Source: an uncultured Pseudomonadota bacterium (GTDB taxonomy: Bacteria > Myxococcota_A > UBA796 > SXON01). From it: a stretch of DNA of 64,000 nucleotides. The DNA lies in NCBI GenBank assembly GCA_903875225.1, contig CAIQVJ010000032.1:1-64000 (forward strand), written 5' to 3'. This document shows, piece after piece, positions 29,483 to 60,529 of this stretch (its first letter is position 1; each line of letters opens with the position of its first letter). Position numbers and translations under genes: made by a program. The notes beneath the pieces are model-generated. The model saw only the letters and a list, made by a program, of their open reading frames with translations. It searched no databases and had not been told where the DNA came from.

Positions 29483-32400
29483 ATGAGCAACACCATGATC
29501 GCGGAGGGCAGGGTCCTTCGAGGCAAGTCCCTGGACGGGGCCGACCTGCGCGGCCTGAACCTCTCCCGCGTCCTCCTGGATCGGGTCACCCTGCGCGGTG
29601 CGGACCTCTCGGGCGCTGTGCTCTCGGGCGCGACGCTCCGGCGGGTGGACCTCACCGATGCGCGGCTCGACGGTGCGGACCTCCAGGGCATCACCGTGCG
29701 GCAGGCCCTCCTGCTCCGCACCTCCCTGGACAACGTCGATGCCCGCGGCGCGCTCCTGGCCGACTGCAAGCTGACCACCGTGACATCCCGGGGCCTCCGG
29801 GCAGATGGCGCGAGGTTGACGGACGTGGGCGTGCTCGACAGCCGTTTTGAGGGGATGTCTCTCGCTGGGGCAGCCCTGACCAACGTCACGCTCGGAAGTG
29901 TGGTGATCGAGGAGGGATCCTTCGTCGGCATGCGGGCGTCCGACTGCACGCTCGAGGGCGGGGCGCTCCAGGGATGCGACCTGCGGAGCGCGACGTTCGA
30001 GCGGGCCAGCATCTCCGGCACGAAGATCTCGGAGTGTCAACTCCGGGCTGCACTCTTCCGGGAAGCAAGGTTCTCCCGGGTCGACTGGGGTTCGGGCGAT
30101 TGGTCCGGAGCGGTCTTCGACCTGTGCCGGGGCATCGAGTTGGAGCGCGAGCGCACGATCACCGAGGCGGGCGCCCGTTTCGAGCATGGGATCTGGGTCC
30201 GGATGGGCCGGCGGGTGCGGGGGAGCCGGCCGCTGCAGGTGGCGGTTGCAAGCACCGTCGTGCTCACCATCGCTGGGCTCGTGGTCGTTGCCTACGTGCC
30301 GTCGATGCAGCCAACCCTGGTCCTGGCCACCCGTCTGTCCGCGCTCCCGCCAGACCCGAGCGTGGAGACGTGCTCGAGGGTGCTGGCCCTGGGTGCGCCG
30401 CTCTCGGAGCGCACCGGCCACGACCCCACGAAGCGAATGGGTATTTTCGAACGCATGGCGGACTGCCAACGCGCGTTGGGGCATCTGGACCTGGCGGCGG
30501 ATTTGCTGCGCGAAGCGGTGGGTATCGCGGACCACGAGAGCGATCGGATGGGCGCGCTGCTCCTGCTCAGTCACGTCCTGATGGAGAGCAAAGACCTTGA
30601 TGCGGCGAGGGATACCGCACTTCAGGCCGAGGATCTGGCGAGCACGCCGGACGAGCGAGTGCGGGTACTCCGCCTGAAGGCGGAGATCCTCGCTGCCCAG
30701 GGCGGGCACGCGACGGCCCGCTCCCCGGGAACCACCCCGGCGGCGGGGGACGAATGGCTGGATTTGCAGCTTGCGATCGCTGACGAAATCGAGAAAGCAC
30801 CGTCGAACACTCGACCGGCGCCGGAGAACACACCAAGCGACCTCTACGTTCTCGGCGAGTGGGACCGCGCGGACAGGCTCCTGTCCGGGGACCCCAACAT
30901 CAGCGCCGCTCAAGCCTGGTCGATGGCCCAGACCGCCGTCGAGCGAATCGTGCAATCCGGTGATGTGGACCTGGCCGTTGCGCTGCTCGACCACTTCTAC
31001 ACCCCCGGAGCCCTCACCACGACCGACGAACTGGCACGGTTCCGGTCGCAGGTCGAGATCCTCATCCGCGTGGGGCGGACCGACCGGGTGGCTGGGCTCC
31101 TGGCTGACCAGCAGGGCGCGACCGACCCCATCGTGCTGGCGGAACTCACCCTTCTGCGGGGAAAGCTCCTCCTGGCCACCCAACAGCCAGCGGCAGCCGC
31201 CGCGCTGCTCCTCGGGAGTCCGCTGGCCTCGGGGGCGTCGTACGACCTGACGTGTCGCTTTGCCTGGGCGCTGGCAGACGCGCAGCTACGGAGTGGGAAC
31301 GAATCCGGGGCGGTCGAAGCACTCGGCCCGATGTTGCGCGCGGTCACCGACCCCAGTGACGCCGCCGACCTCACCCGCCGCTTGGCGGAGTGGTCTACGC
31401 ATCTCTCCCAGCCCGGGCTGCTGATCGCCGCTCTGGACGCTGCCGGTAACCCTCTGCTGGAGGGAGACGGAAGGGGACAGGCCATGCAATTGGCGCGGCT
31501 GGCGCTCCAGGTTCGGGCGGGGCCAGTGAGCGCGCAGGACCCGACCTACCTGTCAGTATTGGCGAGTGGATCCCCTGAGGAATCCGAGCAGGCGCTCAGG
31601 TTGATGGCATCCGGGATCGCGGGCCAGGGGGACATCGTCGCCCAACTGGACACTCTCGTGGCGCAGGCGGCGGCGATGCGCAACGCCGACAGCAGGGGCC
31701 GCGCGGGGATCACCCTGGCCCAGTTCGCCAATTCCGATGGACGGCCGGACAAGGCGCTGGACGTCATCACCAAAATGCAGTTGGAGCAGGCCCCACTCGC
31801 CCAGGTCCGAACCGCCGCACGTGAACTCCGCGCTGGTATTCAGTTGGATCGCGGGCAGGTCGACGACGTCATCGCAGAGTACCACCTGCTCTCCTCGAGT
31901 CCCGATGCCGTCGATGATGCCGCGAGCTTCGGCCTGCGCATGCGGGTCGCCCAGGCGCTCCAAGGGGCCTCGCGTTGGAGCGAAGCACTCCCCCTGATTC
32001 GGAGTCTGCGATCCGGCGATCATGCCACTGACCCCGACCTGTGGAAGATGGCGCTGACCTCTCTGGCGGGGGCGTCGACCGCCGGTGAATTCGAAAGCGA
32101 GGCCGCCGCCGCTGCACGGGTGCTGCCACCCTGCCAGACCCAGGCCATCGCTGCGGAAGCATGGATGGACCGGGGCTTGGGCCCCCCCAGTCTGAGTGCT
32201 CTTGAGCAGGAGTGCACCCGGGACGACGCTACACCTGGCGACCGACTGGCCGCCGCGCGAGACCTGCACCGTGGAGGGGCGACGACTTCCGCTGTCCGCG
32301 TGCTTCAAGCGGTCGACACAGCCACAGTCTCGAACGACGTTCGCTGGCAAGTGGACTGCGACCTTGCCTCCTACCTTTCCGAGGCAGGCCGGCGAGCCGA

Positions 32401-34231: not shown

Positions 34232-35296
34232 GTGTGGATGCTGGACGGGACGCTCGGCGTGCGTCCACCGGAAAGGGCCCGGCCCGTGCCCTGGCCACCC
34301 GCGACCAGCCGTTGGGAGGCGACCGTGCCTAGCGTGGTGAAGCATGCCCTCGAGGACATCTGTTTCCCGGAATTCCTCGACCTGCTCCGCGAGGCGCACG
34401 CGGAAATCGTTGGCGGTACGGGGATGGAAGGAGTGATCTCTGAGCCGCACTATCGCTGGAAATATGCGTCACCATTTGGGGCGGCGGTCGCCGCGCTCGT
34501 GGTTCACGGAAACAAATACATAGCATCTACCTCCATGTTTCCACTTGAAGTCGTTTCAAGCGCAGGAGTGGTACGAGCGTGGCAGTGCTGTGATGCAGCA
34601 ACCCGTGCGGACGCGCGTGGACAGGGCTGGTTCACGCGATGCCTGACCTCACTGCGCACGGAGATCGGCGAGAACGAGATCTTCTTCGCCTTTCCAAACA
34701 AGAACTCCGCGCCAGGATTTCGGAAGTTCGGCTGGCAACATCACGGCGACGTCCATACCCGCATCCGCCTGCTCCCCTCGGCGCAGGTGCACCCGTCACC
34801 AGGGATGCTTCGCCTCACCCGATTCGGTGATGCGCAGGACCGGCTGGTCACCCAGCTGGTCTCGGGATCGCCCATGCTCAACAAGACCGCCGCATACATG
34901 AACTGGCGCTACTTCGACCACCCACTGAACCGGGCCCAGTACGAGTGCTTCACCGGCCATGAGGAGGGGTTCGGAACGCTTGTCATGCGGGACCTGTCCG
35001 TGCTCGGCCAGCGTTTTGCCGTGATCATGGAGCTGCTGGGCCGGAACCCTGGGGAGGAACTCCAGATGCTTCGTTTTGCAACGCGGTGGGCGGCCCGAAG
35101 GGGAATCCAGCGCGTGCTCGCCATGGACAACACGCTCGCGAACTCGATCGCCCTGCGTGCCGGCTACTGCCTGGTGCCCCAACGACTTCTTCCGAAACGC
35201 CAGATGCTCATGGGCGCTGACTACGGGGGGGGGGTCGCGCGGCGGATCTGGGCCGCACCATGGAGGGTGGCGATCGGAGATTGGGATGCGTTTTAG
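34232..35296 (+). CDS. GNAT-type acyltransferase-like protein
   Basis: A 354-residue protein with features of GNAT N-acyltransferases: ATRADARGQGWFTRCLTSL resembles the acetyl-CoA binding loop (R/Q-x-x-G-x-G/A) and FPNKNSAPGFRKFGW is common in sugar- or exopolysaccharide-linked GNAT proteins; a second half (FATRWAARRGIQRVLAMDNT) looks like another GNAT-like lobe. The GTG at 34232 has GAGGAG 5 bases upstream, but the first 30 residues are Pro/Arg-rich and the conserved part begins near residue 31, so a start near 34325 is possible. It overlaps the deacetylase-like gene by 11 bases. Likely acylates a surface sugar. Confidence 0.68.
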   Translation: MWMLDGTLGVRPPERARPVPWPPATSRWEATVPSVVKHALEDICFPEFLDLLREAHAEIVGGTGMEGVISEPHYRWKYASPFGAAVAALVVHGNKYIASTSMFPLEVVSSAGVVRAWQCCDAATRADARGQGWFTRCLTSLRTEIGENEIFFAFPNKNSAPGFRKFGWQHHGDVHTRIRLLPSAQVHPSPGMLRLTRFGDAQDRLVTQLVSGSPMLNKTAAYMNWRYFDHPLNRAQYECFTGHEEGFGTLVMRDLSVLGQRFAVIMELLGRNPGEELQMLRFATRWAARRGIQRVLAMDNTLANSIALRAGYCLVPQRLLPKRQMLMGADYGGGVARRIWAAPWRVAIGDWDAF

Positions 35297-36233
35297 CCCA
35301 GACCCAACCGAACTCCCCAAAGTGCCCCGCCCGAAAACGACCGTTTTCACCCACACAGACGATGCAGGAGTAACCCCCTCCGTCAGCAGGGCCGTGGCCG
35401 ATCTCTGGAGAGCCGGGATCCTCGATGGATTCAGCGTGATTGCCAACGGAGACGGGATGGCCGAACTCCGGGAGGCAGCGCTCTCTGCGCCGGAACGCCC
35501 GCTGCGCCTCGCCGTTCACCTCAACCTGAGTGAGGGTCAGAGCAGCGCGCCCCCAGCCCGTGTGCCGCTCCTGGTCGACGATCGGGGACACCTGCGACAC
35601 TCATTTGGGAGTCTGCTTTCGTTTTGGATTGGTGGTTCTCCGGCAAGGCGACGAGCCCTGGTCCAGCAGGCTGCCGAGGAGTGGCGCGCACAGACAGCCA
35701 GGGTCACCGACGGTTTCGCGCCGCGCCGCTTGGCCAGTCTGGACGGCCACATCCATGTCCACGCGCTTCCATTTCTCTTTCGCGTAGCGTGCGAAATCGC
35801 GTTGGAATTCGGCGTTCCCGGAGTTCGGATTTCCAGAGAACCGCTCTTCCTACCGCCCGGCCGTTTTTTCCCACCGCGATCCTGGTGGGACAATCTGCCC
35901 AAGCATGTCGTGTTGCGCGCCTGTTCGCGGCTGAACGAACCCACCGCCAATGCGGCGGGCCTGTCACACCCCGACCGAATCGTCGGAATCTTGAGCAGCG
36001 GTAGGATGTCGGCGGCGGATGCTCTCGCAGGCGTTTCCGCCGCTGAGCGCGGCGGGGCGAAGGTCATCGAGGTGGTTTTTCACGCCGGACGCGAAACCGG
36101 TCCCCCCGTTTCCCGCTGGGCGAATCGGGCCGACCTCGAACGCTCATATCGGTCCGTCGGTCGGCAGTTTGAGGCGGAAGAATCGGCGCGACTTCGTGAA
36201 ACCCTGATTCGCCGAGGCTACCGCTCTGACTAA
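35286..36233 (+). CDS. ChbG/YdjC-family carbohydrate deacetylase
   Basis: A 315-residue enzyme of the YdjC/ChbG family, which removes acetyl groups from acetylated sugars using a bound metal. The metal-binding motifs are seen: THTDDAGVTPS (Asp 25, Asp 26), LAVHLNLSEG, and SLDGHIHVHALP (around 150-160). The start ATG at 35286 has a GGAG 6 bases upstream and overlaps the GNAT gene end. Placed with acyltransferase and glycosyltransferases, it would process a polysaccharide or its precursor. Its 3' end overlaps the convergent membrane protein gene by 4 bases. Confidence 0.85.
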   Translation: MRFSPDPTELPKVPRPKTTVFTHTDDAGVTPSVSRAVADLWRAGILDGFSVIANGDGMAELREAALSAPERPLRLAVHLNLSEGQSSAPPARVPLLVDDRGHLRHSFGSLLSFWIGGSPARRRALVQQAAEEWRAQTARVTDGFAPRRLASLDGHIHVHALPFLFRVACEIALEFGVPGVRISREPLFLPPGRFFPPRSWWDNLPKHVVLRACSRLNEPTANAAGLSHPDRIVGILSSGRMSAADALAGVSAAERGGAKVIEVVFHAGRETGPPVSRWANRADLERSYRSVGRQFEAEESARLRETLIRRGYRSD

Positions 36234-39076: not shown

Positions 39077-39885
39077 GACCTGTGGACATCTCGGTGGTGC
39101 TGCCCGTGTTCAACGCGGCATCGTTCGTGGACAAGAGCCTTGCCCAGCTCGCCCATTTCCTGGGGGCGGGGGCCGCCACCTGGGAGATCGTCGCGGTGGA
39201 TGACGGCAGCACCGATGAAACGCTGGCTCGACTCACCGGCTCTTCCGTTTCGAACCTGAGGGTCGTCGCCCTGCCAGCGAATCTCGGTAAATTCGGGGCG
39301 TTGAAGACTGGGATGCAAGCGAGTCGTGGTCGGTGTAGAGTGTTCATGGACGTGGACATCCCGTTCGACCTCTCTGCCGTCCCCTACATGGCCCATCTGG
39401 TCAACGAGCGAGGATTTCACATAGTGACCGGCGACCGAACGCTCATGGGCTCTGACTATCGCCCCCACCTTTCGTTGCGCCGCGGTACCGCCTCGACCCT
39501 GTTTTCCTTCCTCGTCCGGGAAATTGTGGCCGGGGGACTTTTCGACACGCAATGCGGTTTGAAGGCGTTTCGCGGCGACGTAGCCGAGGCGTTGTTTCCG
39601 CTCCTGCGGGAGAACGGCTTTGCGGGCGATGTGGAGCTCCTCTACATCGCCCTGAAGTACAACCTCGAGATCAAGCGGGTACCCGTGCGATTGCTGCAAT
39701 CGGGACCCAGCTCAGTCAGGTTGGGCCCCGACTCCATCCGCATGATGTCGGGCATCGCGTCGCTGCGGCGACAGTGGCGCTCCGGTCAGTACCGGTCCCA
39801 GACGCTCGCCACGATAGCGGAGCAGGAGTACTGGACGGAGCCCGGAGAACCGAGGGCGCCGATTCATCACCGTAGTCTACGGTAG
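39073..39885 (+). CDS. Family 2 glycosyltransferase, dolichol-phosphate mannosyltransferase type
   Basis: A 270-residue GT-A fold transferase. DISVVLPVFNAASFV (about 5-19), EIVAVDDGSTDET (about 38-50), MDVDIPFDLS near 95 (the D-x-D type metal site), and DTQCGLKAFRGD plus GFAGDVELLYIALK match the polyprenyl-phosphate mannose/glucose synthases. Such enzymes charge a lipid carrier with a sugar, which GT-C membrane enzymes then use; this fits the seven polytopic proteins in this region. Its start overlaps the methyltransferase stop, and its 3' end overlaps a convergent gene by 19 bases. Confidence 0.88.
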   Translation: MRPVDISVVLPVFNAASFVDKSLAQLAHFLGAGAATWEIVAVDDGSTDETLARLTGSSVSNLRVVALPANLGKFGALKTGMQASRGRCRVFMDVDIPFDLSAVPYMAHLVNERGFHIVTGDRTLMGSDYRPHLSLRRGTASTLFSFLVREIVAGGLFDTQCGLKAFRGDVAEALFPLLRENGFAGDVELLYIALKYNLEIKRVPVRLLQSGPSSVRLGPDSIRMMSGIASLRRQWRSGQYRSQTLATIAEQEYWTEPGEPRAPIHHRSLR

Positions 39886-41666
39886 ACCGGGCCTGCCGGC
39901 GTCTGCACCCGCTCCCATCGGAGTTGCACAAGCCCGCGTAGAAGCGGCTCTGCAACCGCCCGATCCTGCGTCCCGAGTTCCCGCAGGGGGCCCGTCAGCG
40001 GGTCGGGCAGCCCATCACTTGTTCCAAGGGGGACCTCGCGCAGACCTTCTCTCTCAAACCACACCAGGAAGTCGTAGCGACTTGGGTCGAGTAACTCCAT
40101 TGGCTGGTACTGCGAATTTTCGAAGATGGGCGAATAACATGTCGAATTCGGAACTTCCAATTCGATGAGCCAGCACCCCTCCAGAGCCAGCTTCTTGGAG
40201 TACCCCTGGGGAGGAAGGAAGGAGAGCATCAACACCCGGAGGGGCGGGCCATCACTTCCCGCCCCCCTCACAACGTCAGCCACCGCATGCATCGCCGCAC
40301 CGTACGCCGGCCGCGGAAACTGGAGGAGTGGGTCGCCCTGGATTACGGGGCGCACCAGGGCGTCGTCCTGCCAGTGAGGGCCGGACGCGAACACCACTTC
40401 GAGGCGTTCAACGACGGCAGCCCCGAGGGCAGCAGTGCAAAGCAGTCCGCGAAGGAGGGGTCGCCGAATCGACGTGAGCCCGACGGCGCCCCCCACCACC
40501 AGTCCAGTGAGGGAGGGGATGAGATACCAGTTGCCGATGCGAACCGAACTGGAAAGGACGAGCAGGGGTAGCGCGTGCATGCCCACAAGGGCAACTCGCT
40601 CGCGGGTCAGCGGGCGCAGGCTGGCCGCCAGTCCAACCCAAAGGAGCGCGACCAGGGGAAAGAGCACGAGGTGCGTCGCACACTCCTCGACGTAGGCGAA
40701 CTGGCGCGGCAGCACCGCATGGTCGGGAAGCCAGTTGCCATCGGCCGCGCCCGGCACACCCTTGTCGCCCAGCTTCGCCCCGAACGACATGTACTCGATG
40801 GCTGCACCACGACCGGACCACAAACCGGCCACCAGCAACACCGGGGCCACGATGACCACGAACCCCAGCAGCCGCCTCCACGGCCGATCGCCTCGCCATG
40901 CCCGCCGAAGCGAGGTATCGATGGCGATCCACCCGGGCAGGAGCGCCACCTGGGCCACATTGAGCGTGCCGCTGGTGTTCTCAGCGACGCGAAAAGCAAC
41001 CAGCGCCAGCAAGGCCACCCCGATGCACGACCCGACATTGGCGAAGCCATCCCCGACCAGCAGCAGCAGGGACATCCATGCGGCGATTGCCGCGAGTGGC
41101 ACCGCATCGACGTGGGAGATGGCCGCACCTACGAACGCCGGCGTGCCGCAGGCCAGAACTGCCGCGAACAACCCCGTCAGCGGCCCCCGGCCGAGTTTGC
41201 CAAGCCGATAGCATGCCATTGCGAGCAGGGCGAACCAGAACCTGAGCCCGAGCGCCGCGACCGCCGCAGAACCGGGAAAAAGCACCACGAGAATGGCCGC
41301 AGGCAGAGCATGCAGCGGGAACGCATTGATGTAGTCGTCACCTTGATACCAGATCCACCGGGTACGTTCAACCCACGACATGGCCGTCGGCGTGGGCGCA
41401 TCGAAGCCTGCAGGGCAGAAATACGAAACCGAGCAAAGGGGCTGGATTGGTGACCAGCCCTCCATCACACGGGCCAATCGGACCAGCGCTCCGTAGCTCT
41501 CGTGATGGGTATCCTGGGGGAACGACAGGCTGCGCTGGTCCCGGTACACGCCGAGCCCGGTGTCCACCAACAAGATCAGCGCGAGGAGCAGCGGTGCCAT
41601 ACGCCGGATCCATGCGACGAACCCGGCTGCCCTGACGGAGACCGAGGGTGGATTCACAGCGCTCAT
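39867..41666 (-). CDS. Polytopic membrane protein, family A paralogue 1
   Basis: A 599-residue protein with about 11 spans, starting at ATG 41666 (MSAVNPP). First periplasmic loop: RDQRSLSFPQDTHHESYG, with acidic residues near conserved His. Later a GVPG-rich loop, NWYLIPSLTGLVVGG, and a soluble C-terminal domain of about 120 residues (RYDFLVWFEREGLREVP, QTPAGPVYRRLR). It is clearly homologous to the proteins at 41663-43429 and 50168-51979. Its start overlaps the previous minus-strand gene by 4 bases. Probably GT-C-like, no family name recognised with certainty. Confidence 0.72.
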   Translation of the reverse strand: MSAVNPPSVSVRAAGFVAWIRRMAPLLLALILLVDTGLGVYRDQRSLSFPQDTHHESYGALVRLARVMEGWSPIQPLCSVSYFCPAGFDAPTPTAMSWVERTRWIWYQGDDYINAFPLHALPAAILVVLFPGSAAVAALGLRFWFALLAMACYRLGKLGRGPLTGLFAAVLACGTPAFVGAAISHVDAVPLAAIAAWMSLLLLVGDGFANVGSCIGVALLALVAFRVAENTSGTLNVAQVALLPGWIAIDTSLRRAWRGDRPWRRLLGFVVIVAPVLLVAGLWSGRGAAIEYMSFGAKLGDKGVPGAADGNWLPDHAVLPRQFAYVEECATHLVLFPLVALLWVGLAASLRPLTRERVALVGMHALPLLVLSSSVRIGNWYLIPSLTGLVVGGAVGLTSIRRPLLRGLLCTAALGAAVVERLEVVFASGPHWQDDALVRPVIQGDPLLQFPRPAYGAAMHAVADVVRGAGSDGPPLRVLMLSFLPPQGYSKKLALEGCWLIELEVPNSTCYSPIFENSQYQPMELLDPSRYDFLVWFEREGLREVPLGTSDGLPDPLTGPLRELGTQDRAVAEPLLRGLVQLRWERVQTPAGPVYRRLR

Positions 41667-43429
41667 CCGCCCCCCGGCACAGGCCCGCTGCCCGGAATCT
41701 TCCGGTAGACCGGGCCGGACGGGGTGTGCACGGTCTCCCATCGAAAGCGGCGGAGGCCCTCGACCAGTTTCTGGGACACCTGTTGAGCGGGCGACATATG
41801 GTTGAAGGCATCCAGCAACATGCTGGGCAGCGGTCCGGACTCCCCCATCGGCATTTCGAACAACCCCTGCCTCTCGAACCAGGCCAGGACATCATACCGA
41901 CCGGGATCGAGCACTACCGCGGGCGTTCGCAGGTCACTCTCGTACATTGGTGCGTAGCACGTCGCGTCCGGGGCATCGAACTCGACCACCCAGCATGTTC
42001 GGAGGCCCCGCGTTCGCATCGTCGCGAGGACCAGCACCCTCACCGGCTTGCCATCGGCGCGAGGCTCCCGGGCCACCTTAGATATCTCGGCGACCGCCGC
42101 GCCCTCGTCGGGGCGGGGGTACTGGAGCACCTTGTCCCCCTGAATGACGGGCTGCACCAACTCGTCGCCGGTCCATCTGGGGACCTCGGCGACAGTGGCT
42201 GCAAAGCGCTCGACCCCCGCGCTCGTGAGGGCGGCGCCGCAGAACAGGGCCCTGAGATACCTGTTCGGCACCAACGCAAGGCCGATCGCCCCAGCGACTA
42301 CGAGGCCCGGGAGCGAAGGGATGAGGTACCAGTTCGCCACCCGGACGGACAGGGAGAGCACCAGCAGGGGGAGGAGGTGCATCCCCGCGACCGCGATCGC
42401 CGGCCGCCTGCCAGAAGAGACGGCCGCGATCAATCCGGCCCAGAGGAGATACACGAGAGGTTGAAGTACGAGATGTCGCGCCGACTCCTCGAGATAGGCC
42501 AGCCGGCGAGGCAGCACCGCGACCTCGGGCACCCAGTTTCCGTCGACAGTCCCCGGCACCCCGTTGTCGCCCAGCTGAGCGCCGAAAAACATGTACTGGA
42601 GAGCCCCATCGCGCCCCGGCCAGAACAGCAGCACTAGCACTGCAGGAGCGAGGATGGTAGCAACGCCGAGCAGTCGGCGCCACCGACGATCACCCCTCCA
42701 GCCTGGAGCCAACCCCGCCTGGGCCGCCACCAGCCACGGCCCCGCACACGTGAGCGCCACGAGGAGGGTACCGCTGACATTCTCGGAGACGCGAAAGGCC
42801 AACATGGTCAGCGCCGACACTCCCAGGCACGGCAGGAGCCTCGAAAATCCTTCCGTGGCAAAAAGAAGCACAGCGATCCACGCAGCAATCGCGGCGAGCG
42901 CGATGTCGTCGCGATGCTCCATCGCGGCTCCGAAAAGGCCAGGGGTTCCACAGGCGAGGAGGACTGCGAACAGCCCAGTCACCGGCCCGCGGCCGAGACG
43001 TCCCAGCAAGAAGCACGCGACGAGCAGGCAGGCAAACCACAGCCGGGGCCCCAACGCTGCAACTGCCGCCGACCCGGGAAACAGCGCCACCAGCGCCGCC
43101 GCCGGCAGCGCATTCAGGGGGTAGGCGTTTGCGTACACCCCCCCCTGGGTCCAGAGCCAGCGGTAGCGCGATACCCACGACGTTGGGGCGGTTGATCGCT
43201 CCTCAAAGCCGTAGGGACAGAACAGACCGATGTCGCAGTCCGACTCGACCGGCCGCCACCCTTCGATGACCCGCGCGAGGCGGCTGACCATCAGGTAGGT
43301 GTCGTGATGGGTCTCCTGCGGGTAGGACAAGCTCCTGTGGTCGCGGTACATCCCAGCACCGACGTCGACCGCAAGGAAGAGAAGAAGGAGCAGAGGTGCA
43401 AACCGGCGACAGACCCGGCCCATGCTCAT
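41663..43429 (-). CDS. Polytopic membrane protein, family A paralogue 2
   Basis: A 588-residue paralogue of its downstream neighbour, overlapping it by 4 bases. The first loop reads RDHRSLSYPQETHHDTYL, with the acidic residues kept; later segments FPGSAAVAALG, LACGTPGLFGAA and NWYLIPSLPGLVVAG match the family. The soluble C terminus contains RYDVLAWFERQGLFEMP and TPSGPVYRKI, then a Gly/Pro tail. The start ATG at 43429 is chosen from the mini-frame that ends on it (ATGA). It is divergent from the second giant pentapeptide-TPR gene. Confidence 0.72.
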   Translation of the reverse strand: MSMGRVCRRFAPLLLLLFLAVDVGAGMYRDHRSLSYPQETHHDTYLMVSRLARVIEGWRPVESDCDIGLFCPYGFEERSTAPTSWVSRYRWLWTQGGVYANAYPLNALPAAALVALFPGSAAVAALGPRLWFACLLVACFLLGRLGRGPVTGLFAVLLACGTPGLFGAAMEHRDDIALAAIAAWIAVLLFATEGFSRLLPCLGVSALTMLAFRVSENVSGTLLVALTCAGPWLVAAQAGLAPGWRGDRRWRRLLGVATILAPAVLVLLFWPGRDGALQYMFFGAQLGDNGVPGTVDGNWVPEVAVLPRRLAYLEESARHLVLQPLVYLLWAGLIAAVSSGRRPAIAVAGMHLLPLLVLSLSVRVANWYLIPSLPGLVVAGAIGLALVPNRYLRALFCGAALTSAGVERFAATVAEVPRWTGDELVQPVIQGDKVLQYPRPDEGAAVAEISKVAREPRADGKPVRVLVLATMRTRGLRTCWVVEFDAPDATCYAPMYESDLRTPAVVLDPGRYDVLAWFERQGLFEMPMGESGPLPSMLLDAFNHMSPAQQVSQKLVEGLRRFRWETVHTPSGPVYRKIPGSGPVPGGG

Positions 43430-43461
43430 GCGGGCGACTCGGACGCGGGGGCACACACCAT
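43426..43461 (-). CDS. Candidate 11-residue leaderless mini-ORF
   Basis: On the minus strand a TAGGCT hexamer (43468-43473) is followed after exactly 6 bases by an ATG that opens MVCAPASESPA and stops at a TGA overlapping the ATG of the membrane-protein gene at 43429. That is the same spacing as at three other genes in the window. It may be a coupled leader peptide; no amino-acid run suggests attenuation. Low certainty. Confidence 0.3.
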   Translation of the reverse strand: MVCAPASESPA

Positions 43462-43548
43462 GCTGGGAGCCTATCCCGCTGAAGCCGCCCCGGGCCCCCG
43501 CCCGCCGCCATCTTCCTGTGATACAGCAGCAGCCGCCGTGAGAGCCGA

Positions 43549-46500
43549 TTGAGCGACCCGAACAGCAGGACCACCCTCCCGTCTGCTGGCCAGCGCTGGC
43601 GGCGCAGGTCTTTCGACGGCGCCGATCTCCGAGGAACGAACCTCGCCTTGCTGCACCTCCAGCGAGTGAGTCTCCGAGGGGCCGATCTCTCCGGTGCCAA
43701 CCTCGACGGGGCCACACTCACACACGTGGACCTCACCGGCGCGCGCCTCGCTGGTGCCTCGATGCGCGGGGCATCGTTGAAGCAGGTCGTGCTCGGCCAA
43801 GCCGTTCTGGACGGCATCGACGCGCGCGGCGCGGCGCTCGAATCCTGCACATTCACGGGACTGACCGGAACGAGCCTGACGCTCGCAGGGGGTTCGCTCA
43901 CAGAGGTCACGTTCAGCGGAAGCCGCTTCGTTGGGCTCGATCTGGATGGCGCGACGCTCCGGTCTGTGAAATTCGAGAACGTGCAGATCGATGGAGGCTC
44001 ACTCGTCGCCTTGAGAGCGCTCACTTCTGCGTTTTCAGGCGGCCGCATCTCCGGGTGCGACCTCCGGGGCGCGAGCGCCCACGACCTTGAGCTGCACACC
44101 ACGCACCTGATCGACTGCCGGCTGGACGGGCTGCTGCTGCGCCGCTGCGGACTCAAGGGTCTGGTGGTGCAGAACGGCACGGCAGTGGGCTGCATGCTGG
44201 ACCACTGCCACGGACTAGCCGACTCGTGCGAAGCCGCTCTGCTCGCAGCGGGCGCGACGATCGTCCTGCCCCGGCACATCCGCGCGTGGCGCCGTATGCG
44301 AGGGAACCGGCCTTTGCAGATCGCGATCGCGGCGCTCGCGCTCGCCGTCGCCATCGGCAGTGGCGCCGTCGTCAGCAACCCGGCCCTGCAGCCGAGTCCG
44401 GTGCTGAACTACCGGATGTCCCTCCACGCCGACGACGCGGAGGGATGCGCCGCCGTCGTCTCACTGGGGACCATCCTCGTGGAGCGGATGCGCGGAACCC
44501 CCGCCGAGACCACGGCGCTGCTCGAGCGAATCGCGGATTGTCAACGGCAACTCGGACACCCCGACGAGGCGGAGGGCCTGCTTCGACGAGCCGCCGCGTT
44601 GACCGGCAACGACCCAACGATGTCCGCGCACGCCCTCCTTGCGCTGGGGGACCTGTTGCTCGCTCGCCGGGACCTCGCGGGCGCGCAGCAACTGCTGGCC
44701 GAACTCCAGGTGTTGAGCCTCGAAGCACCGGAGCGTCTGGCCGCGCTGCGATTCGGTGAGCAGGTGCTTGTTGCCGACCACGTGTCCCCAAGGCCACGTG
44801 GGGCGGAGCCCGGGCCGGTGTCCAACGACCCCTGGCTGCCGATCGAGCTGGGCATCGCGGACGCCGTGACCGCGCTGCCCCCCCCCCGGGGGCCGTTGCT
44901 TGGCGACACCCCCTCGAAGCTCTACGTCCTCGGGGAGTGGGACCGGGCCGACGCGCTCCTCGGTGCCTGCTCGGAGCTGGGCGACGATGCGAAGTGGCAG
45001 CAGGTTCGCAGCGCCGCGAAGCAGATGGTGCTGGGCGGAGCGCAGGACGCCGCCCTGGCACTGCTGGATCGGCAGCGGCCCGGGGGGGGCCTCTCGACGC
45101 CACAACGGCTCGGGAGCTTGAGGATGCAGGTCGAACTGCTCCTTGATCTCGATCGGGCGGCCAGCGCTGCGGCCCTCGTCGATCAACAGGCGCCGCTCCA
45201 GGAGCCCGCGGCCGCCACCGAACTGGCGCTGTTGAGAGCCGAAGTGTACCTGAAGACCGGGGCGCTCTCGAACGCCGAAGCCACGCTCTCGGGGTTGCGG
45301 CCAGCGCCGGGGTGGGCGTTCGACACCACGCAGCGGTACGCCTGGCTCCTGGCCGAGGTGCGGCTGCAGTCCGGGGCGGAAAAGGCGGCTGTGGAGGCAC
45401 TCGATCCGCTGATCCATGCGGTCACGGATGCCGACTCCGCCGCAGAGGTCATCCAGCGTCTGGCAGAATGGGCGCCCAGGCTGTCGGACCCGACCCTGCT
45501 CCAGGCCCTCCTGGACCGAGCACACAACCCGTTGATCCAGGCAGCGAACGAACGGCAGGCGCTGGCGATGGTAACGCTGCGCCTGAAATCCCAGAATCGG
45601 CAGCTCTCCGCCACCGACCCGACCTTCGTCGCCCTCCTCAGCACGGGTCCAGAGGAGACTCTCCCTGAAGCACTGGCCCTCCTGCTCGACGCCGCCCGGG
45701 AGCGCGGCACTCTCAACGCCGACCTCGACAGCCTCCTGTCCACAAGTCGCGCGATGGAAGATCCAGTCCGCCGGGATCGCGTTGCGCTGATCCTGGCGAC
45801 TGCCGCCCGAGATGACGGACAGCCTGCGCGCGCTCAGTCCATCCTCCACGGCGCGAACCTCGACTCCAGCCCCGACCCTGCCACTCGCCGCGGCGGCTGG
45901 GAGTTGGGGATCCTCACCGCTCTGGAGCTGGGCCGGCTGGACCAGGCCGCCGAGCAGTGCAAACGCTTCCCGGCGCTTGACGGCGAGTTGTCCTCGCCGG
46001 GCTTCCTCGACGTACTCTCTCGGGTCATCCAGGCATTGCAGGCATCGGGGCGCTGGCCCGAGTCGCTGGAGTTGGCCCGCGCCGCACGCCAGGCACCGCT
46101 GGACACCGACCCCGGACTGTGGCGAGAGGTCCTGGTTTCGCTGGAGGCGCAAGGCCTGGAGGCCGAGTACGCGAAGGAGAAAGAGGCCGCCCGCCAGAAA
46201 CTGGGCGCCTGTCAGGCGGAGCGCATCCAGATGGAGGCGCTCCTCGACCTGAGCCGGGCTCCCGGTGCCCCTGACGGCATCGTAGAGGCGTGCAAATCCA
46301 GCGGGCGCGTGGAGGACAGGCTTGCGGCAGCGCAGGTCATGGGACGCGCGGGGTGGCACGACCGCGCCGACGCGCTCCTCGCGTCCATCGACCCCTCGGT
46401 GCCCACCGATGATCAGCGTCTGGGCATCGACTGCGACAGAGCGTCGTACCTGATGGCCTCGGGTCGTGGTCAGGATGCCGCGAACTTGCTGGAGAAGAGC

Positions 46501-48294
46501 TACGCACGCGCCACCACCGAAGCCCAGCGCACTCGCCTCACCCAGGCGCGGCTGGGGCTCCTGGATGCGGCGTCCGACCCAGCGAAGGTGATCGCCCTCT
46601 GGGTGCATTTCGCAGGGGAGAACCCGGGCGCCGAAGGGCGTCAGGTCTGGACCCAGGCGGCCGAGTTACTGCTGCGAATGGGCGCGCAGGACCGAATCCC
46701 CGAGTTGAAGGGAGACCCGGCGTGGGAGCGGGAGCTGATGGAGGGCCAGTCCCCCTCGACACTGCAGGGGCTGATCGACGCCGGGGACTATGCGGGGGCC
46801 TGGGCACTCGTAGAGCGAAAGCCCCAGGGATCGGGCGGCCTCGACGAACGCACCGACTTCCTCCGGCGGGTCGAGTTCCTTGCCGGGGCGAGTGGCGAGC
46901 ACGACCGGATGGAAACCTTCCTCGATGCGTTCACCGCGGCGGTCGACCGCCGATCGGTTCTCGCTCAGCGTGCGGACGTCGCCCGAGCCCGAAATCTGGA
47001 GGCGATGGGACGGGGGTGCGACGCGCTCCCGGTCCTCGCCAAGTTGACACACGGAGGCGTGGCCCCGGCCATCGAGAATGAAGTCGGCGAAGTCTACGGA
47101 AGAACGCTCGGACGCTGCAAGTCCCCATCGGACGTCGAAGCAGCAGCGGAGCGGGTCGCCCTGGGCGGACCCGGCTCTGTGAACGAGCAACTCCTCCGCG
47201 CGTTCGCAGCGCAGCAACTGCTCGCGCGCCAGGATCCATCCGGGGCGATGACGGTGCTGGCCCCCCTTCGGGGGAGCGTGCTCGCACCGTCCGCCGCGTC
47301 CCTGGTCTACGAAACGCTTGTCTCCGGATTCGTCGCCACGGGGAACGCCCCGGGTGCGCTCGACGTCCCGACAGGGTTTCCCGCGGACGAGGGGCCATGC
47401 CCAGCCTGGATCGCGCTCGTTCGACAGTTGCCACCGGGGTCTCCCGAGGCCCCGAAAGCCCGGGAGGGCGCTATATCCCACTGTGACACCGCCACCATGC
47501 CCGTGGACGGGGTGCTCACACTTTCGAACGGGCTTGCCGCTGCAGATCCGACCGCTGCCGCCGCGATTGTCGATGAGGCGCAGCGCGGAACCCAGCGCTC
47601 CGCGACTGACATCGGGCGCCTGAAGATACAGGGCGCCCGAATCCTTGCTGTGCAGGGACAACCGGCAAAGGCCCAGGCAGAACTTCGGGACCTGCTGGGG
47701 AACACCCAACGTCTCGAAACCGCATTGGAGGCGTGCAACGAGCTCGTCCGGGTCGCCCAGTCGCCGGGCGGAGCAGACGCAGTCTCGGTGGAGGCTGGGG
47801 GATGTCTGGCCCGCTTCGGCGCCGATCCCAGGGCGACACAGACCCTGCTGAGCACCACGGTCGACGCGCTGCGCGCGCTTCAAGCCTGGGGCCCTGCGGC
47901 TGACTGGCAGCGTCGGGTCGTGGAGACCCACCCGGCAGCGGGAGACGCGCGCTCCAATGCGCTCTATGAACTTGCCCAGCTCCAACTGCACGGCGGGCTC
48001 GGCGCCCCGCGTGGCGCGAAGCCCTCGTGGCACGACGCGGTCGTAGAGGCGCTTCCGATGGCCACACCGGGGACCCCGCTGCGCGATAGCCTGATGGCCA
48101 TGGACCTCGCCTGGCAAGTCGAGCCCCTCACTTCAAACCCCGCTGCGCTCTCCGCCCTGCTCGACAGGACCCTGGGGCGAGCGCAGGACGGCTTGGCGGT
48201 GTTGGACCAGGCCGCTGGGGATCTCGACGCGTGGGGAAGAAGGGAGGGGGCGGAAGCCTTGCGTCAACAGCGATCGCGAAGATCTCCCCCATGA
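43549..48294 (+). CDS. Giant pentapeptide-repeat / TM / TPR-solenoid protein (copy 2)
   Basis: A 1581-residue paralogue of the protein at 29483, with the same layout: pentapeptide-repeat helix (about 18-215; FDGADLRGTNLALLHL, LRGADLSGANLDGATL), basic stretch (RAWRRMRGNRP), one span (about 255-278), and a 1300-residue TPR-like solenoid. The first residues after the span (NPALQPSPVLNYRMSL) recall copy 1 (MQPTLVLATRLSAL). The TTG start at 43549 is inferred from where the homologous region begins. The stop overlaps the ATG of the membrane protein at 48291 (ATGA), so these two are coupled, as copy 1 is with its own partner. Confidence 0.85.
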   Translation: MSDPNSRTTLPSAGQRWRRRSFDGADLRGTNLALLHLQRVSLRGADLSGANLDGATLTHVDLTGARLAGASMRGASLKQVVLGQAVLDGIDARGAALESCTFTGLTGTSLTLAGGSLTEVTFSGSRFVGLDLDGATLRSVKFENVQIDGGSLVALRALTSAFSGGRISGCDLRGASAHDLELHTTHLIDCRLDGLLLRRCGLKGLVVQNGTAVGCMLDHCHGLADSCEAALLAAGATIVLPRHIRAWRRMRGNRPLQIAIAALALAVAIGSGAVVSNPALQPSPVLNYRMSLHADDAEGCAAVVSLGTILVERMRGTPAETTALLERIADCQRQLGHPDEAEGLLRRAAALTGNDPTMSAHALLALGDLLLARRDLAGAQQLLAELQVLSLEAPERLAALRFGEQVLVADHVSPRPRGAEPGPVSNDPWLPIELGIADAVTALPPPRGPLLGDTPSKLYVLGEWDRADALLGACSELGDDAKWQQVRSAAKQMVLGGAQDAALALLDRQRPGGGLSTPQRLGSLRMQVELLLDLDRAASAAALVDQQAPLQEPAAATELALLRAEVYLKTGALSNAEATLSGLRPAPGWAFDTTQRYAWLLAEVRLQSGAEKAAVEALDPLIHAVTDADSAAEVIQRLAEWAPRLSDPTLLQALLDRAHNPLIQAANERQALAMVTLRLKSQNRQLSATDPTFVALLSTGPEETLPEALALLLDAARERGTLNADLDSLLSTSRAMEDPVRRDRVALILATAARDDGQPARAQSILHGANLDSSPDPATRRGGWELGILTALELGRLDQAAEQCKRFPALDGELSSPGFLDVLSRVIQALQASGRWPESLELARAARQAPLDTDPGLWREVLVSLEAQGLEAEYAKEKEAARQKLGACQAERIQMEALLDLSRAPGAPDGIVEACKSSGRVEDRLAAAQVMGRAGWHDRADALLASIDPSVPTDDQRLGIDCDRASYLMASGRGQDAANLLEKSYARATTEAQRTRLTQARLGLLDAASDPAKVIALWVHFAGENPGAEGRQVWTQAAELLLRMGAQDRIPELKGDPAWERELMEGQSPSTLQGLIDAGDYAGAWALVERKPQGSGGLDERTDFLRRVEFLAGASGEHDRMETFLDAFTAAVDRRSVLAQRADVARARNLEAMGRGCDALPVLAKLTHGGVAPAIENEVGEVYGRTLGRCKSPSDVEAAAERVALGGPGSVNEQLLRAFAAQQLLARQDPSGAMTVLAPLRGSVLAPSAASLVYETLVSGFVATGNAPGALDVPTGFPADEGPCPAWIALVRQLPPGSPEAPKAREGAISHCDTATMPVDGVLTLSNGLAAADPTAAAAIVDEAQRGTQRSATDIGRLKIQGARILAVQGQPAKAQAELRDLLGNTQRLETALEACNELVRVAQSPGGADAVSVEAGGCLARFGADPRATQTLLSTTVDALRALQAWGPAADWQRRVVETHPAAGDARSNALYELAQLQLHGGLGAPRGAKPSWHDAVVEALPMATPGTPLRDSLMAMDLAWQVEPLTSNPAALSALLDRTLGRAQDGLAVLDQAAGDLDAWGRREGAEALRQQRSRRSPP

Positions 48295-50123
48295 ACCTCA
48301 CGGACTGGTCGCTGCTGCTGGGGGCGACCCTCCTGGGGGCGCTGAACCTGCGGGCATGGCACGCGTGGAGGCCGATCGGGGCTCTGCGCGTCCACTCGAG
48401 GTCGGAGTTCGTCCTGGATGTGGTGCTCTGGGTCACACTTTTCGCGATTTCGATCGCGTACCTGTGCCCGAGGTACTCGCTGATGAACCCGCGGCAAGTC
48501 CCATACGGCCAGGACGCCGGCGACTACCTGCGCTGCATGCTGGCGATTCGGGATGGTGATCCGGCGATCTGGCAACCCCATCGGTACCCGCTGTTTCCCA
48601 GCCTGAGCGTGCTGTGGGCCCGCGCGTCCGGGGTGGACATCGCACGTGGCGCGCAGATGGTGGCGCTCTCGGCCGCCGTCGTCACCCCCCCGATCGTCTA
48701 CGCCTTCGGCCGGACCCTCACCTCTCGGCCAGTCGCCTTCGCCGGAGCCGCACTTTCTCTGGAGCTCTGCTTCGAGCCCACCCTGCTGGGCAGCATAAAT
48801 GCCTACCCCCTCACCACCGCAATGTTCATACTCTCTTTGGCGACGGTCACGGCTGCCGTCCGCGACGGAGGTATGCTCCGCCACGTCGCGGCGGGTGTGG
48901 GACTGTCGCTGTATGGCAGCTCCACCGCAGCTGCATTTCCGACACTAGGCCTCGGTGCCGTTGCCGTCTGCGTGGCGACGATGGCGACGCACGGGCGGCG
49001 ACCTTGGAGTCACCTGATCGGATTCATGCTCCCGCTGGGAATCTTCTGGGCGGTCTTCGCTGTTCTTCCGTTCCGGCTGTACCCACTGGAGGCGCTACTC
49101 TACGAGGTCCAGGAGTTCGAGCACCTGCTGGACCCCAGGCGACCTTTCCCAGACGTTGGCTGGAACGGGTCCACGGAAGCAGGGCTTCGCGGGTATTGGA
49201 TACCGGGGCACGCATCGGCGTTGTTGCACCTTCGGGAAGTATTCACCTACCTGATCTTCCCGCCGGTCCATCCGGTTGGGCTGCCCGAGCGGTACAACCT
49301 GCTGGTGCCGTCCCTGGCCAGCGCGGTCGGCGCCCCCGAGCACCCCCTGTTCATGCTCGCTTCGCTGGTAGGCGTCGCCGGCGCGGGAGCGGGGGCAGCC
49401 GCCACACCGCGCAAGGTCGTCGCCGCGCTCGCCCTCAGCGGTCTGCTTGTGGCGCAGGCATGGAGCCTCACAGGCGCTTCGAGCTTTGTCTTTCGGTACG
49501 CCCAGGGGATGATCCTCGTCACCCCGGTCCTGCTCCTCGCCGCGGCCGCACTACCTGCGCGCCAGCTGCGGAGCTCGCTACCCAGGGCGGCAATTTGCTG
49601 GGCGCCGCTGATCGGGGTGATGTGGTGGGTGCTGGGGCCATCGCCGGGCGCCTTCGGGCGCGACGGATCGAACGACCGGCTCAAGCAGTGGAGCAACCCC
49701 CAGATCCCTGTCGAGGCCGTGCTCTCGCTCAAGGCCCGGATCCAGCCGGACGACGTGCTGCTCGGGGTCAACGACGGCTTGCTCGGTCGAGCGCTGTTCG
49801 GCGGCAACACAGCCGAGGAGGGGGTGCTGGAGATGACGTCCACTGGCTCCTTCCGATTCAGGGCACCCGGGCTCGCCACCCGCCAGCGATGGCTGCTGTT
49901 GGGCTGCGTGGATCAGGCCGCACTGGATCAGAACCCCGGCATGATGGCGCTCAGGACGTTCCTCGACCAGAATGCCGACCGGTTTGAGCCTGTGGACCGC
50001 TGCATCTACCACGACCTTCAGCCCACCCAGGCGATCGAGTTCGAGCCGATCGGGTGTATCCCGCGATCACCCCCCCTCCCCCCGGCGCCTCCGCTCCTGG
50101 GCGGCCCCCGGACCACTCCTTGA
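48291..50123 (+). CDS. Polytopic membrane protein, glycosyltransferase-39-like
   Basis: A 610-residue protein with about 11 spans. The loop after the early spans contains YGQDAGDYLRCMLAIRDGD, a good match to the D-x(2)-D type acidic loop of GT39/GT-C enzymes, and later HRYPLFPSLSVLW. The C-terminal soluble part holds ILLGCVDQAAL-type and Pro-rich ends. The start ATG at 48291 overlaps the giant protein's stop. The tail after residue 585 is Pro/Leu-rich and may be unstructured. Likely works with the pentapeptide-TPR protein, but that is inferred from coupling only. Confidence 0.75.
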   Translation: MNLTDWSLLLGATLLGALNLRAWHAWRPIGALRVHSRSEFVLDVVLWVTLFAISIAYLCPRYSLMNPRQVPYGQDAGDYLRCMLAIRDGDPAIWQPHRYPLFPSLSVLWARASGVDIARGAQMVALSAAVVTPPIVYAFGRTLTSRPVAFAGAALSLELCFEPTLLGSINAYPLTTAMFILSLATVTAAVRDGGMLRHVAAGVGLSLYGSSTAAAFPTLGLGAVAVCVATMATHGRRPWSHLIGFMLPLGIFWAVFAVLPFRLYPLEALLYEVQEFEHLLDPRRPFPDVGWNGSTEAGLRGYWIPGHASALLHLREVFTYLIFPPVHPVGLPERYNLLVPSLASAVGAPEHPLFMLASLVGVAGAGAGAAATPRKVVAALALSGLLVAQAWSLTGASSFVFRYAQGMILVTPVLLLAAAALPARQLRSSLPRAAICWAPLIGVMWWVLGPSPGAFGRDGSNDRLKQWSNPQIPVEAVLSLKARIQPDDVLLGVNDGLLGRALFGGNTAEEGVLEMTSTGSFRFRAPGLATRQRWLLLGCVDQAALDQNPGMMALRTFLDQNADRFEPVDRCIYHDLQPTQAIEFEPIGCIPRSPPLPPAPPLLGGPRTTP

Positions 50124-50167: not shown

Positions 50168-51979
50168 TCAATCCGACCCCTCACCCGGAACCACGCTGTT
50201 CATGTCCGCCCGCACGTAGACGGGGCCCACCGGAGTGTGCAGACGCACCCACTCCACGTCCGACAGGTGATCCATGACCTTGTGGGCGACGTACCTCGCA
50301 CTGTCGTCCATGCGGTTGATCGACTCCTGCAGCAGGCTGGGTAGCGGCCCTGGAGCACCCAGGGGGATCTCCCGCAGCCCGTCCTGTTCAATCCAGGCCA
50401 GCACCTCGTAGCGGTTGGGGTCGAGGAGCTCGCCGGGCAGATCGCGCCGAAGCCCCCACAGCGGCGAGAGACAGGTGGCCATCGGGTCGTCGAGCCGCAC
50501 GATCCAGCAGGTCGCGAGGCCGCGCTGCCGAACCGCCGAGATCACCAGCACCCTGTGTGGCGTCCCGGTATTCGGCAGGGCGTCGACGACGTCCGCGATG
50601 CCATGTGCCGCCGCGCCCTCGGTGGCCCGGGGGCCCTCGATGACGAAGTTCCCGACGAGCACCTTGTGCAGCAGCACATCGGCCGCGGTCCTCGGGCGTT
50701 GCCAGAACGTGAGCGCACCCCGCTCGTAGGAAGCCGCGAGGAGCGCCCCGGCGCACAACGCAGCCCGGAGCCGGGGGTGCTGCAAAGCGGTGAGGCCGGA
50801 CGCCCCGCCAACGACCAGCGCGGGCAAGGCGGGGATGATGTACCAGTTCCCGAGGCGCTCGGTGAACGACAGCAGCACGAGCGGGATCAGGTGCATCCCC
50901 AGCACCCCGAGGTTCGTACGACTGCGGTCGCGAAAACTGACACACAGCCCGAACCACACGAAGAAGACCAGCGGCATCCAGACGAGATGTCGGGCCAGCT
51001 CCTCGATGTAGCCAAGCTGCTGGAACGGGAGAACGGCGTCCTCTGCGAACCAGTTGATGTTCGGCGCCGCGGGGGTCCCGATGTCTCCGTTCGCCGCCCC
51101 GTACCACACATAGTGCCACGCATACTCCCGGCCCCGCCAGTAGATCGCGATCAGCACAGGCGGAGCCACGATAAGCACCAGCCCGAGCAGCCGACGCAAC
51201 GGCTTCACGCCCTGCCAGGCCTGCCCGACCGCGAGATGAACCTGGGTGACGAAAGGCGCGAACACCGAGAGGGCGACGAGGAGCGTCCCGCTCGTGTTCT
51301 CCGGAAGGCGGAACGCCAGGAGCGTCAGGAGCACGACGCCCACGCAGTTCGCGAGCCTCGAGAACCCCTCCGACGACAGCAGCAGCACCGCCATCCAGAC
51401 CGTGACGGTGGCGAGCGGGATGCTGTCCTGGTGCACGAGGGAGAGGCCGAACAGGCCCGGCGTCCCGCAGGCCAGCACGGCCGCGAGCAGCCCGGTGAGC
51501 GGGCCACGGAGCATACGACCAAGCTGGAAGGTGCCACCGAGCAGCAGTGCGAACCAGAACCTGAGCCCGAGCGCCGCGATGGCCGCGGAGCCCGGGATCA
51601 ACGTCACGAACACCGCCGCTGGCAACACGTAGAGCGGGTACGCGTTGTTGTAGTCGTGGCCCTGGTCCCAGATCCACCGCGTGGCCTCCCACCACGACCG
51701 CGGCTCTGCGGAGGGTGCATCGAACCCGGCCGCACAGTCCCATCCCACGTTGCAGTGCCCCACCGGCCTCCAGCCCTGGAGGACGCGAGCGAACCGGCTC
51801 ATGACGACATATGAGAAATGCTGGGTTGCCTGTGGGTAGTTCAGGCTCAGGTGGTCCCTGTACAGGCCCAGCGCGCCATCGCCCAGGAGGAGGAGCAGCA
51901 ACAGGAGCACCGCCCGTTTCTGGATCCAGCTGAGAACGCCGGAAAGTGCGGGCTGGGTAGGGTCGGGGCTCGCTTGCAT
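50168..51979 (-). CDS. Polytopic membrane protein, family A paralogue 3
   Basis: A 603-residue third member of the family at 39867 and 41663, starting at ATG 51979. It keeps the framework (YRDHLSLNYPQ, LIPGSAAIAALGLRFWFALL, LACGTPGLFG, NWYIIPALPALVVGG) and the soluble tail (RYEVLAWIEQDGLREIP, HTPVGPVYVRAD). The first-loop acidic pair is gone (QATQHFSY instead of Q-[DE]-THH-[ED]). If those residues are catalytic in the paralogues, this copy may be inactive or use a different mechanism. It is divergent from the nucleotide-sugar operon. Confidence 0.72.
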   Translation of the reverse strand: MQASPDPTQPALSGVLSWIQKRAVLLLLLLLLGDGALGLYRDHLSLNYPQATQHFSYVVMSRFARVLQGWRPVGHCNVGWDCAAGFDAPSAEPRSWWEATRWIWDQGHDYNNAYPLYVLPAAVFVTLIPGSAAIAALGLRFWFALLLGGTFQLGRMLRGPLTGLLAAVLACGTPGLFGLSLVHQDSIPLATVTVWMAVLLLSSEGFSRLANCVGVVLLTLLAFRLPENTSGTLLVALSVFAPFVTQVHLAVGQAWQGVKPLRRLLGLVLIVAPPVLIAIYWRGREYAWHYVWYGAANGDIGTPAAPNINWFAEDAVLPFQQLGYIEELARHLVWMPLVFFVWFGLCVSFRDRSRTNLGVLGMHLIPLVLLSFTERLGNWYIIPALPALVVGGASGLTALQHPRLRAALCAGALLAASYERGALTFWQRPRTAADVLLHKVLVGNFVIEGPRATEGAAAHGIADVVDALPNTGTPHRVLVISAVRQRGLATCWIVRLDDPMATCLSPLWGLRRDLPGELLDPNRYEVLAWIEQDGLREIPLGAPGPLPSLLQESINRMDDSARYVAHKVMDHLSDVEWVRLHTPVGPVYVRADMNSVVPGEGSD

Positions 51980-55994: not shown

Positions 55995-56007
55995 TGCGAG
56001 GCACCGG

Positions 56008-59738: not shown

Positions 59739-60515
<777 letters not shown>

Positions 60516-60529
60516 CCGCGAGACCTCCG

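Follow-up and report, generated by a model that had tools for sequence, protein, structure and literature searches.

The window analysed here, 64,000 nucleotides of an uncultured Pseudomonadota bacterium (contig CAIQVJ010000032.1, positions 1 to 64,000), carries two copies of a very large repeat protein, S1 and S2, each beside genes for polytopic membrane proteins resembling GT-C-type glycosyltransferases. Do the two kinds of protein work together? A sequence-only reading of the window had taken the repeated adjacency as strengthening a functional link. We find an association that runs one way and at the level of the superfamily: a scaffold (S) gene implies a nearby GT-C-type gene, not the reverse. 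The explanation that we prefer, and hold tentatively, is that S is a rare, short offshoot of a giant protein and has been recruited to periplasmic glycan assembly as a scaffold anchored in the inner membrane. The scaffold genes and the predicted parts of S2 are as follows.

43549..48294, plus strand: S2 gene, encoding a 1,581-residue bitopic protein of giant size, with predicted pentapeptide beta-helix, transmembrane (TM) helix and alpha-solenoid (open reading frame (ORF), homology, AlphaFold2 (AF2))
43591..44214, plus strand: S2 residues 15–222, pentapeptide right-handed beta-helix, predicted cytosolic (PF00805, AF2, Foldseek)
44308..44373, plus strand: S2 residues 254–275, single TM helix, predicted N-in/C-out (hydropathy, AF2, charge)
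44398..48291, plus strand: S2 residues 284–1581, predicted TPR-like alpha-solenoid with three invariant cysteine pairs (AF2, structure searches)
29483..34222, plus strand: S1 gene, encoding a 1,579-residue paralogue of S2 (ORF, homology, Pfam)

S2 is a genuine and intact coding sequence. Its ORF (43549–48294) opens with TTG, contains zero internal stops and encodes 1,581 residues; its coding status follows from full-length homology to 29483–34222 and from a positive codon-usage score, partly circular since the training set held S1, S2 and the polytopic genes. S2 and S1 align end to end with 555/1575 identities (35%) and 17 gaps. All three scaffold copies begin with ‘MS’, which speaks for the TTG start; the third copy is that of G031, a genome from another family of the same order. 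Pairwise identities are 35.2% (S1–S2), 34.3% (S2–G031 copy) and 33.0% (S1–G031 copy); being near-equal, they place S1 and S2 barely closer to each other than to the copy from another family. The sequence-only reading had called a 1,581-residue paralogue here, as the ORF and the full-length homology confirm, and had judged the copies diverged and their duplication not recent, with which these identities agree. Recent duplication is ruled out by the 35% identity and the near-equidistance to the G031 copy; on sequence, the divergence looks old, and separate acquisitions may account for the pair instead of duplication within the lineage.

All three copies are pentapeptide-repeat proteins, scoring above the curated cut-offs of PF00805/PF13599 (75.5 bits against a PF00805 cut-off of 20.2 for S2). 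AF2 models of S2 were built from a three-row alignment as two pieces, residues 1–820 and 760–1581, with predicted local distance difference test (pLDDT) scores of 78.9 and 83.0. They place the beta-helix first, then the TM helix at 254–275, then a continuous alpha-solenoid reaching the C-terminus. The modelled beta-helix has ~11 coils with strands recurring in a five-residue register (pLDDT ~80–93), and a Foldseek search with the first part matched HetL (3du1, E 1.2e-8), with QnrB1 and MfpA also among the matches; as modelled, the N-terminal part has the right-handed quadrilateral beta-helix fold. The solenoid spans ~1,300 residues and ~75 helices, counted by hand on both model lists. Structure searches with both parts returned TPR/HAT solenoids, including LGN, KLC2, Ski3, Ctr9 and IFT proteins; in VIA-align, run on the residue 760–1581 part, LGN, KLC2, DdvA and LapB ranked top with Z ~14–15, a level that the tool itself warns is common for helical repeats. 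At the level of fold, tandem antiparallel helix pairs winding into a superhelix, the S2 model is a TPR-like alpha-solenoid.

The residues directly before the TM helix hold six K/R and no D/E in S2, and 5–6 K/R with 0–2 D/E across the 3/3 copies; by the positive-inside rule this predicts a cytosolic N-terminus and a periplasmic solenoid. Six solenoid cysteines are invariant in 3/3 copies and form the pairs 300/331, 888/915 and 1284/1312 (S2 numbering); in the models the two partners, 27–31 residues apart, lie on neighbouring helices. Monte Carlo random placement gave three such pairs with P ~0.002. Charge and cysteines together suggest the N-in topology with a periplasmic solenoid, and the paired cysteines would form three disulfides. 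The predicted architecture is, as a whole, well supported.

The membrane genes that adjoin the two scaffold genes are these.

48291..50123, plus strand: GTC2, 610-residue polytopic GT-C-like protein in ATGA overlap with S2 (sequence, family alignment)
41663..43429, minus strand: X paralogue 1, polytopic, GT-C-like, divergent from S2 (hydropathy, homology)
39867..41600, minus strand: X paralogue 2, polytopic (hydropathy, homology)
50168..51979, minus strand: X paralogue 3, polytopic, convergent with GTC2 (hydropathy, homology)
27877..29478, plus strand: GTC1, 533-residue polytopic GT-C-like protein ending 4 bases ahead of S1 (family alignment)
26468..27877, plus strand: DUF2079 (PF09852) membrane protein in one-base overlap with GTC1 (Pfam)

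The ATG start of GTC2 at 48291 overlaps the S2 stop TGA (48292–48294); from the sequence, the start of the mechanical ORF 48231–50123 should be moved to 48291. S2 is separated from the divergent X paralogue by 119 bp (43430–43548), and the X paralogues at 39867–41600 and 41663–43429 share 54% identity. The ATGA overlap and the divergence from two polytopic paralogues, both noticed in the sequence-only reading, hold, and a third X lies at 50168–51979. A hydropathy script with a strict threshold supplied the TM counts, which are probably too low for the polytopic proteins.

The earlier label for 48291–50123, ‘GT39-like’, is weakly supported, and membership of GT39 is not supported, GTC2 itself having no Pfam or NCBIfam match above cut-off, PMT/PMT_2 and other GT-C models included. 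PMT_2 is seen weakly in 3/18 members of the GTC2 alignment (best E 0.0012), 3/14 of X and 1/17 of GTC1; these alignments cover 18/20 loci for GTC2 (L070 and L074 omitted as truncated), 14/17 for X (L046, L048 and L053 omitted) and 17/20 for GTC1 (L093, L096 and L099 omitted). By hhalign the GTC1 family is a remote homologue of the GTC2 family (99.3%, E 9.8e-21), and homology of GTC2 with X is less sure (94.3%). D75 of GTC2 is invariant in 18/18 rows and aligns with the invariant D73 of the GTC1 family in the first loop; a conserved acidic residue of the first periplasmic loop has a catalytic role in GT-C enzymes. Profile searches of solved-structure sequences with the polytopic families returned no GT-C enzyme and nothing meaningful. 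Judged by family alignment, the polytopic neighbours are likely remote GT-C/PMT-like proteins.

S is rare. Whole-genome searches with its solenoid profile found it in 2/63 genomes of the order (E cut-off 1e-10), 2/71 of the class and 2/377 sampled from the phylum (both 1e-6), the samples being nested and so not independent. The carriers are the window's genome (G000), with two copies, and G031, with one. A pattern scan of 84,980 species genomes with a three-row profile returned one record, the same contig of G031; the S2 solenoid alone as query gave no matches in the same genome-contig collection. A plasmid search gave 36 records, none with coverage of 80% of the query; the rows listed align with the pentapeptide region alone. 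The G031 copy comes directly after two GT-C-type genes, one encoding a PMT_2 protein (60.5 bits against a cut-off of 26.1), the other what we take to be a YfhO-like protein, related to window gene 36230–38014. G031 homologues of GTC1, GTC2 and X sit on contigs other than that of S.

The neighbour families are far commoner among the 63 order genomes: 33 contain GTC1, 20 contain GTC2 and 11 contain X, against 2 for S, a co-occurrence comparison that the sequence-only reading had proposed and that comes out one-way. One genome (G002) has a single stretch with GTC1, two X genes and GTC2 plus a PMT_2 protein, another (G004) X and GTC2 together, and a third (G003) a PMT_2-like gene with GTC1, its GTC2 being on a separate contig, all without the scaffold. 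Scaffold-free genomes with relatives of the S1/S2 neighbours, some of these clustered, include members of the window's own genus. The window's own genome holds a second GTC1 (L104:8897-10492, 55% identical) that lacks a scaffold and adjoins a calcineurin-like phosphoesterase. A tight mutual pairing of S and GT-C genes is ruled out by these relatives of GTC1, GTC2 and X present without S. Seen from the scaffold, all three copies (3/3) have a directly adjacent GT-C-type gene on the same strand, in one case with ATGA coupling and in another across a 4-base gap, where a GT-C-type gene lies within one gene of a random gene in ~1% of cases in these genomes (a rough base rate, by hand, with gene totals assumed from genome size). 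S occurs in 2/8 genomes with all three neighbour families and in 0/55 others (hypergeometric P 0.014, counted by hand with no kinship correction). The sequence-only reading had held that independent occurrence across genomes would refute the link. The polytopic proteins do occur independently of S, and S has always been found (3/3) with a GT-C-type neighbour; the proposed functional link thus keeps the half in which every S copy adjoins GT-C genes and loses its mutual half. Because the evidence spans two genomes, the link cannot be called strong. An adjacency that appeared mutual in one window proved one-way once relatives were compared.

Such a distribution is also what mobile or accessory genes would leave if they travelled in variable glycan islands with no physical tie to the GT-C proteins. 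Since S is confined to two genomes, with S1 and S2 in one shared cluster and GT-C partners that differ, this hitch-hiking is possible, if somewhat doubtful. The rarity of S (2/377 sampled phylum genomes, one record by pattern among 84,980 species genomes), the near-equidistant copies, which fit separate acquisitions, the change of GT-C partners between genomes and the conservation of the GT-C cluster without S all favour it; the same-direction GT-C-type gene beside 3/3 copies, by ATGA or a 4-base gap, does not sit easily with it at a base rate of ~1%.

Two further features accompany the GT-C genes. The product of 52201–52926 is a small secreted or lipoprotein-like protein; in other genomes its relatives (L103:4218-4997, 52% identical; L103:12315-13022; L101:12930-13580) adjoin GTC1 and GTC2, making it a steadier GT-C neighbour than the scaffold. 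Beside the GT-C cluster, 52926–56694 holds nucleotide-sugar genes: an NAD-dependent epimerase, a DegT-type aminotransferase, a GDP-mannose 4,6-dehydratase and a GT2.

Where does S come from? Pentapeptide searches revealed very long frames in the same genus, which encode a giant protein of up to 3.5 kaa (thousand amino acids). From its N-terminus it runs through pentapeptide repeats, a long stretch that by eye resembles coiled coil, another pentapeptide block and a TM helix to a TPR-like solenoid of ~940 residues. Its loci are as follows.

L107:467-8506: giant, 2,679 residues
L109:5674-16221: giant
L106:12610-18570: giant
L108:7234-13086: giant
L122-L130: giant

The giant solenoid profile matched 34/63 order genomes, among them 22/22 genomes of one family (4 of these in part), and none of the protein-family models searched names the protein. 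On the beta-helix side its neighbour is murA (NCBIfam) in 7/7 loci that show that gene, the L122 call being a 316-residue partial match. Thirteen giant loci were fetched; the six outside the murA count either reach or nearly reach a contig end (L106, L108, L129 and L130), have no called gene (L123) or encode a protein without pentapeptide repeats (L128, from G031).

With the beta-helix left out, S and the giant align by hhalign at 92.9% (score 51.9, 190 collinear columns), from the cap helix through the TM helix into the first helices, with 9/11 giants in the comparison (G035 and G029 were missed by the cut pattern). Top control scores were 13.2 for reversed profiles, 21.6 for 30 column shuffles and 37.4 for other window pairs. 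S thus appears homologous to the giant at the cap helix, TM helix and first helices, and we hold with moderate confidence that this junction module shares descent. The two proteins are alike in having pentapeptide repeats, cap helix, linker, TM helix and TPR-like part in the same order; the giant differs in its extra N-terminal beta-helix, coiled-coil-like stretch, murA neighbour and shorter solenoid of different sequence. S1 and S2 lack the giant's second beta-helix, coiled-coil-like stretch and murA neighbour and start directly with one beta-helix. The solenoid bodies gave no convincing alignment (hhalign 29.7%), and full homology of the solenoids is unsupported at that value; the giant solenoid has four invariant cysteines, not the three-pair pattern of S.

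The shared order and the junction homology could instead mark S as a general element of envelope architecture, a short paralogue of the giant with a structural or cell-wall job, its proximity to GT-C genes being incidental. The spread of the giant (22/22 family and 34/63 order genomes) and murA beside it in 7/7 loci speak for this. We consider it unlikely, with the solenoid bodies failing to align convincingly (29.7%), the neighbourhoods of S and giant differing and the giant's four invariant solenoid cysteines lacking the three-pair pattern.

Known proteins share parts of this design. HglK combines pentapeptide repeats with membrane spans and influences where glycolipids are placed (PMC8145042). 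Like S, HetL, Qnr, MfpA and HglK have contiguous five-residue repeats wound into a right-handed quadrilateral beta-helix; HglK has four N-terminal TM regions followed by C-terminal repeats, whereas in S the repeats are N-terminal and lead through one TM helix to a 1,300-residue solenoid. NCBIfam models of Alr5209, HetL, Qnr and MfpA score far under cut-off on S. AlgK, PelB, BcsC and PgaA have periplasmic TPR solenoids able to organise glycan enzymes, and the PgaA TPR domain binds both enzyme and polymer (PMC9384988). They resemble S in a TPR-type solenoid that is periplasmic (for S, by prediction) and in a glycan setting; in S, unlike these, a beta-helix and one TM helix precede the solenoid and there is no C-terminal barrel. 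That N-terminal part leads us to predict an inner-membrane anchor for S, and S2, modelled as helical up to its C-terminus, is not an outer-membrane lipoprotein or beta-barrel TPR scaffold. TMTC O-mannosyltransferases combine GT-C and TPR parts in one chain, the TPR part being non-cytosolic (PMC7801869). S2/GTC2 similarly couple a GT-C-type membrane protein to a TPR-type solenoid on the (predicted) non-cytosolic side, but as two genes and not a single chain, with a beta-helix on the scaffold and a putative enzyme activity for GTC2. S thus belongs to none of the polysaccharide-secretion TPR scaffolds, the TMTCs or HglK. In the literature searched, nothing on point combined pentapeptide and TPR repeats, a statement limited to those searches.

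DdvA, by its PDB title a transmembrane anti-sigma factor, matches the S2 solenoid part (8rot_A, Z 14.7, 249 residues, root-mean-square deviation 10.3). Like S it is a transmembrane protein with a helical-repeat part, and by analogy S might be a trans-envelope sensor, its periplasmic solenoid sensing envelope or glycan state and its cytosolic beta-helix signalling. The one-TM in/out layout would suit such a role, as would the ability of the pentapeptide fold to serve as a binding mimic (PMC8145042). We regard this as very unlikely: S carries a pentapeptide beta-helix in place of the anti-sigma domain, Pfam finds no anti-sigma domain and only the pentapeptide domain ahead of the TM helix, no sigma-factor gene is among the searched neighbours, and helical-repeat Z scores of this size are common.

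Under our preferred reading, recruitment to periplasmic glycan assembly, S1 and S2 would be bitopic inner-membrane giants with a cytosolic beta-helix, one TM helix and a periplasmic superhelix of ~75 helices held by disulfides, descended from, or sharing an ancestor with, the larger pentapeptide/coiled-coil/TM/TPR protein widespread in the order. The periplasmic solenoid would be a docking scaffold gathering GT-C-type glycosyltransferases with acceptor or modifying enzymes; the candidate partners are GTC2, through coupled translation, for S2, DUF2079 and GTC1 for S1, and the PMT_2 and putative YfhO-like proteins in G031. The beta-helix may bind a cytosolic partner, for example donor-supply enzymes. 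From repeat types, predicted fold, homology and neighbourhoods we infer the scaffold function, the contact with GT-C proteins and the role in glycan assembly.

Several observations weigh against this reading. GT-C-type genes are common without the scaffold, in order genomes and in conserved clusters; S occurs in two genomes alone, with S1 and S2 within one cluster; the GT-C families beside it differ between G000 and G031; and the physical interaction is drawn from gene neighbourhood. GT-C relatives were found at 0/10 giant loci (tblastn, 1e-5); run on the window, L038, L100, L101 and L104, this search does detect them (partly self-matches). The best Pfam TPR matches of S1, S2 and the G031 copy all stay under cut-off, which is why we call the solenoid TPR-like, and predicted template-modelling (pTM) scores of only 0.42 and 0.50 make the global shape and curvature of S2 uncertain.

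A broader reading, itself doubtful, takes S and the giant as two branches of undescribed inner-membrane-anchored trans-envelope scaffolds, the giant at murA and S recruited to GT-C assembly. On this view both would follow one plan, in which a single TM helix links a cytosolic beta-helix, with or without coiled coil, to a TPR-like superhelix in the periplasm that disulfides staple in S; the core branch would work in cell-wall or envelope assembly, and the rare short branch would be the TMTC design spread over two genes. In polysaccharide systems the periplasmic TPR scaffolds known so far are proteins of the outer membrane, and S is predicted otherwise; with one TM helix it could couple donor supply inside with glycan assembly outside. 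The giant, present in every sampled genome of one family and beside murA, is a conserved envelope component, possibly more important than S itself.

Other genes of the window include two downstream of S1.

34334..35296, plus strand: GNAT-like protein, downstream of S1 (Acetyltransf_9, sub-threshold)
35283..36233, plus strand: YdjC-like protein (PF04794; Pfam)

Between the S1 and S2 loci, 38159–39885 encodes a methyltransferase and a family 2 glycosyltransferase, which we take to resemble polyprenyl-phosphate sugar synthases. At 23502–24803 a lipoprotein-like protein carries a Big_7 domain, and an L-type lectin domain matches it below threshold. At 59757–62630 lies a presumed housekeeping cluster, by eye pyrH, frr, uppS and cdsA.

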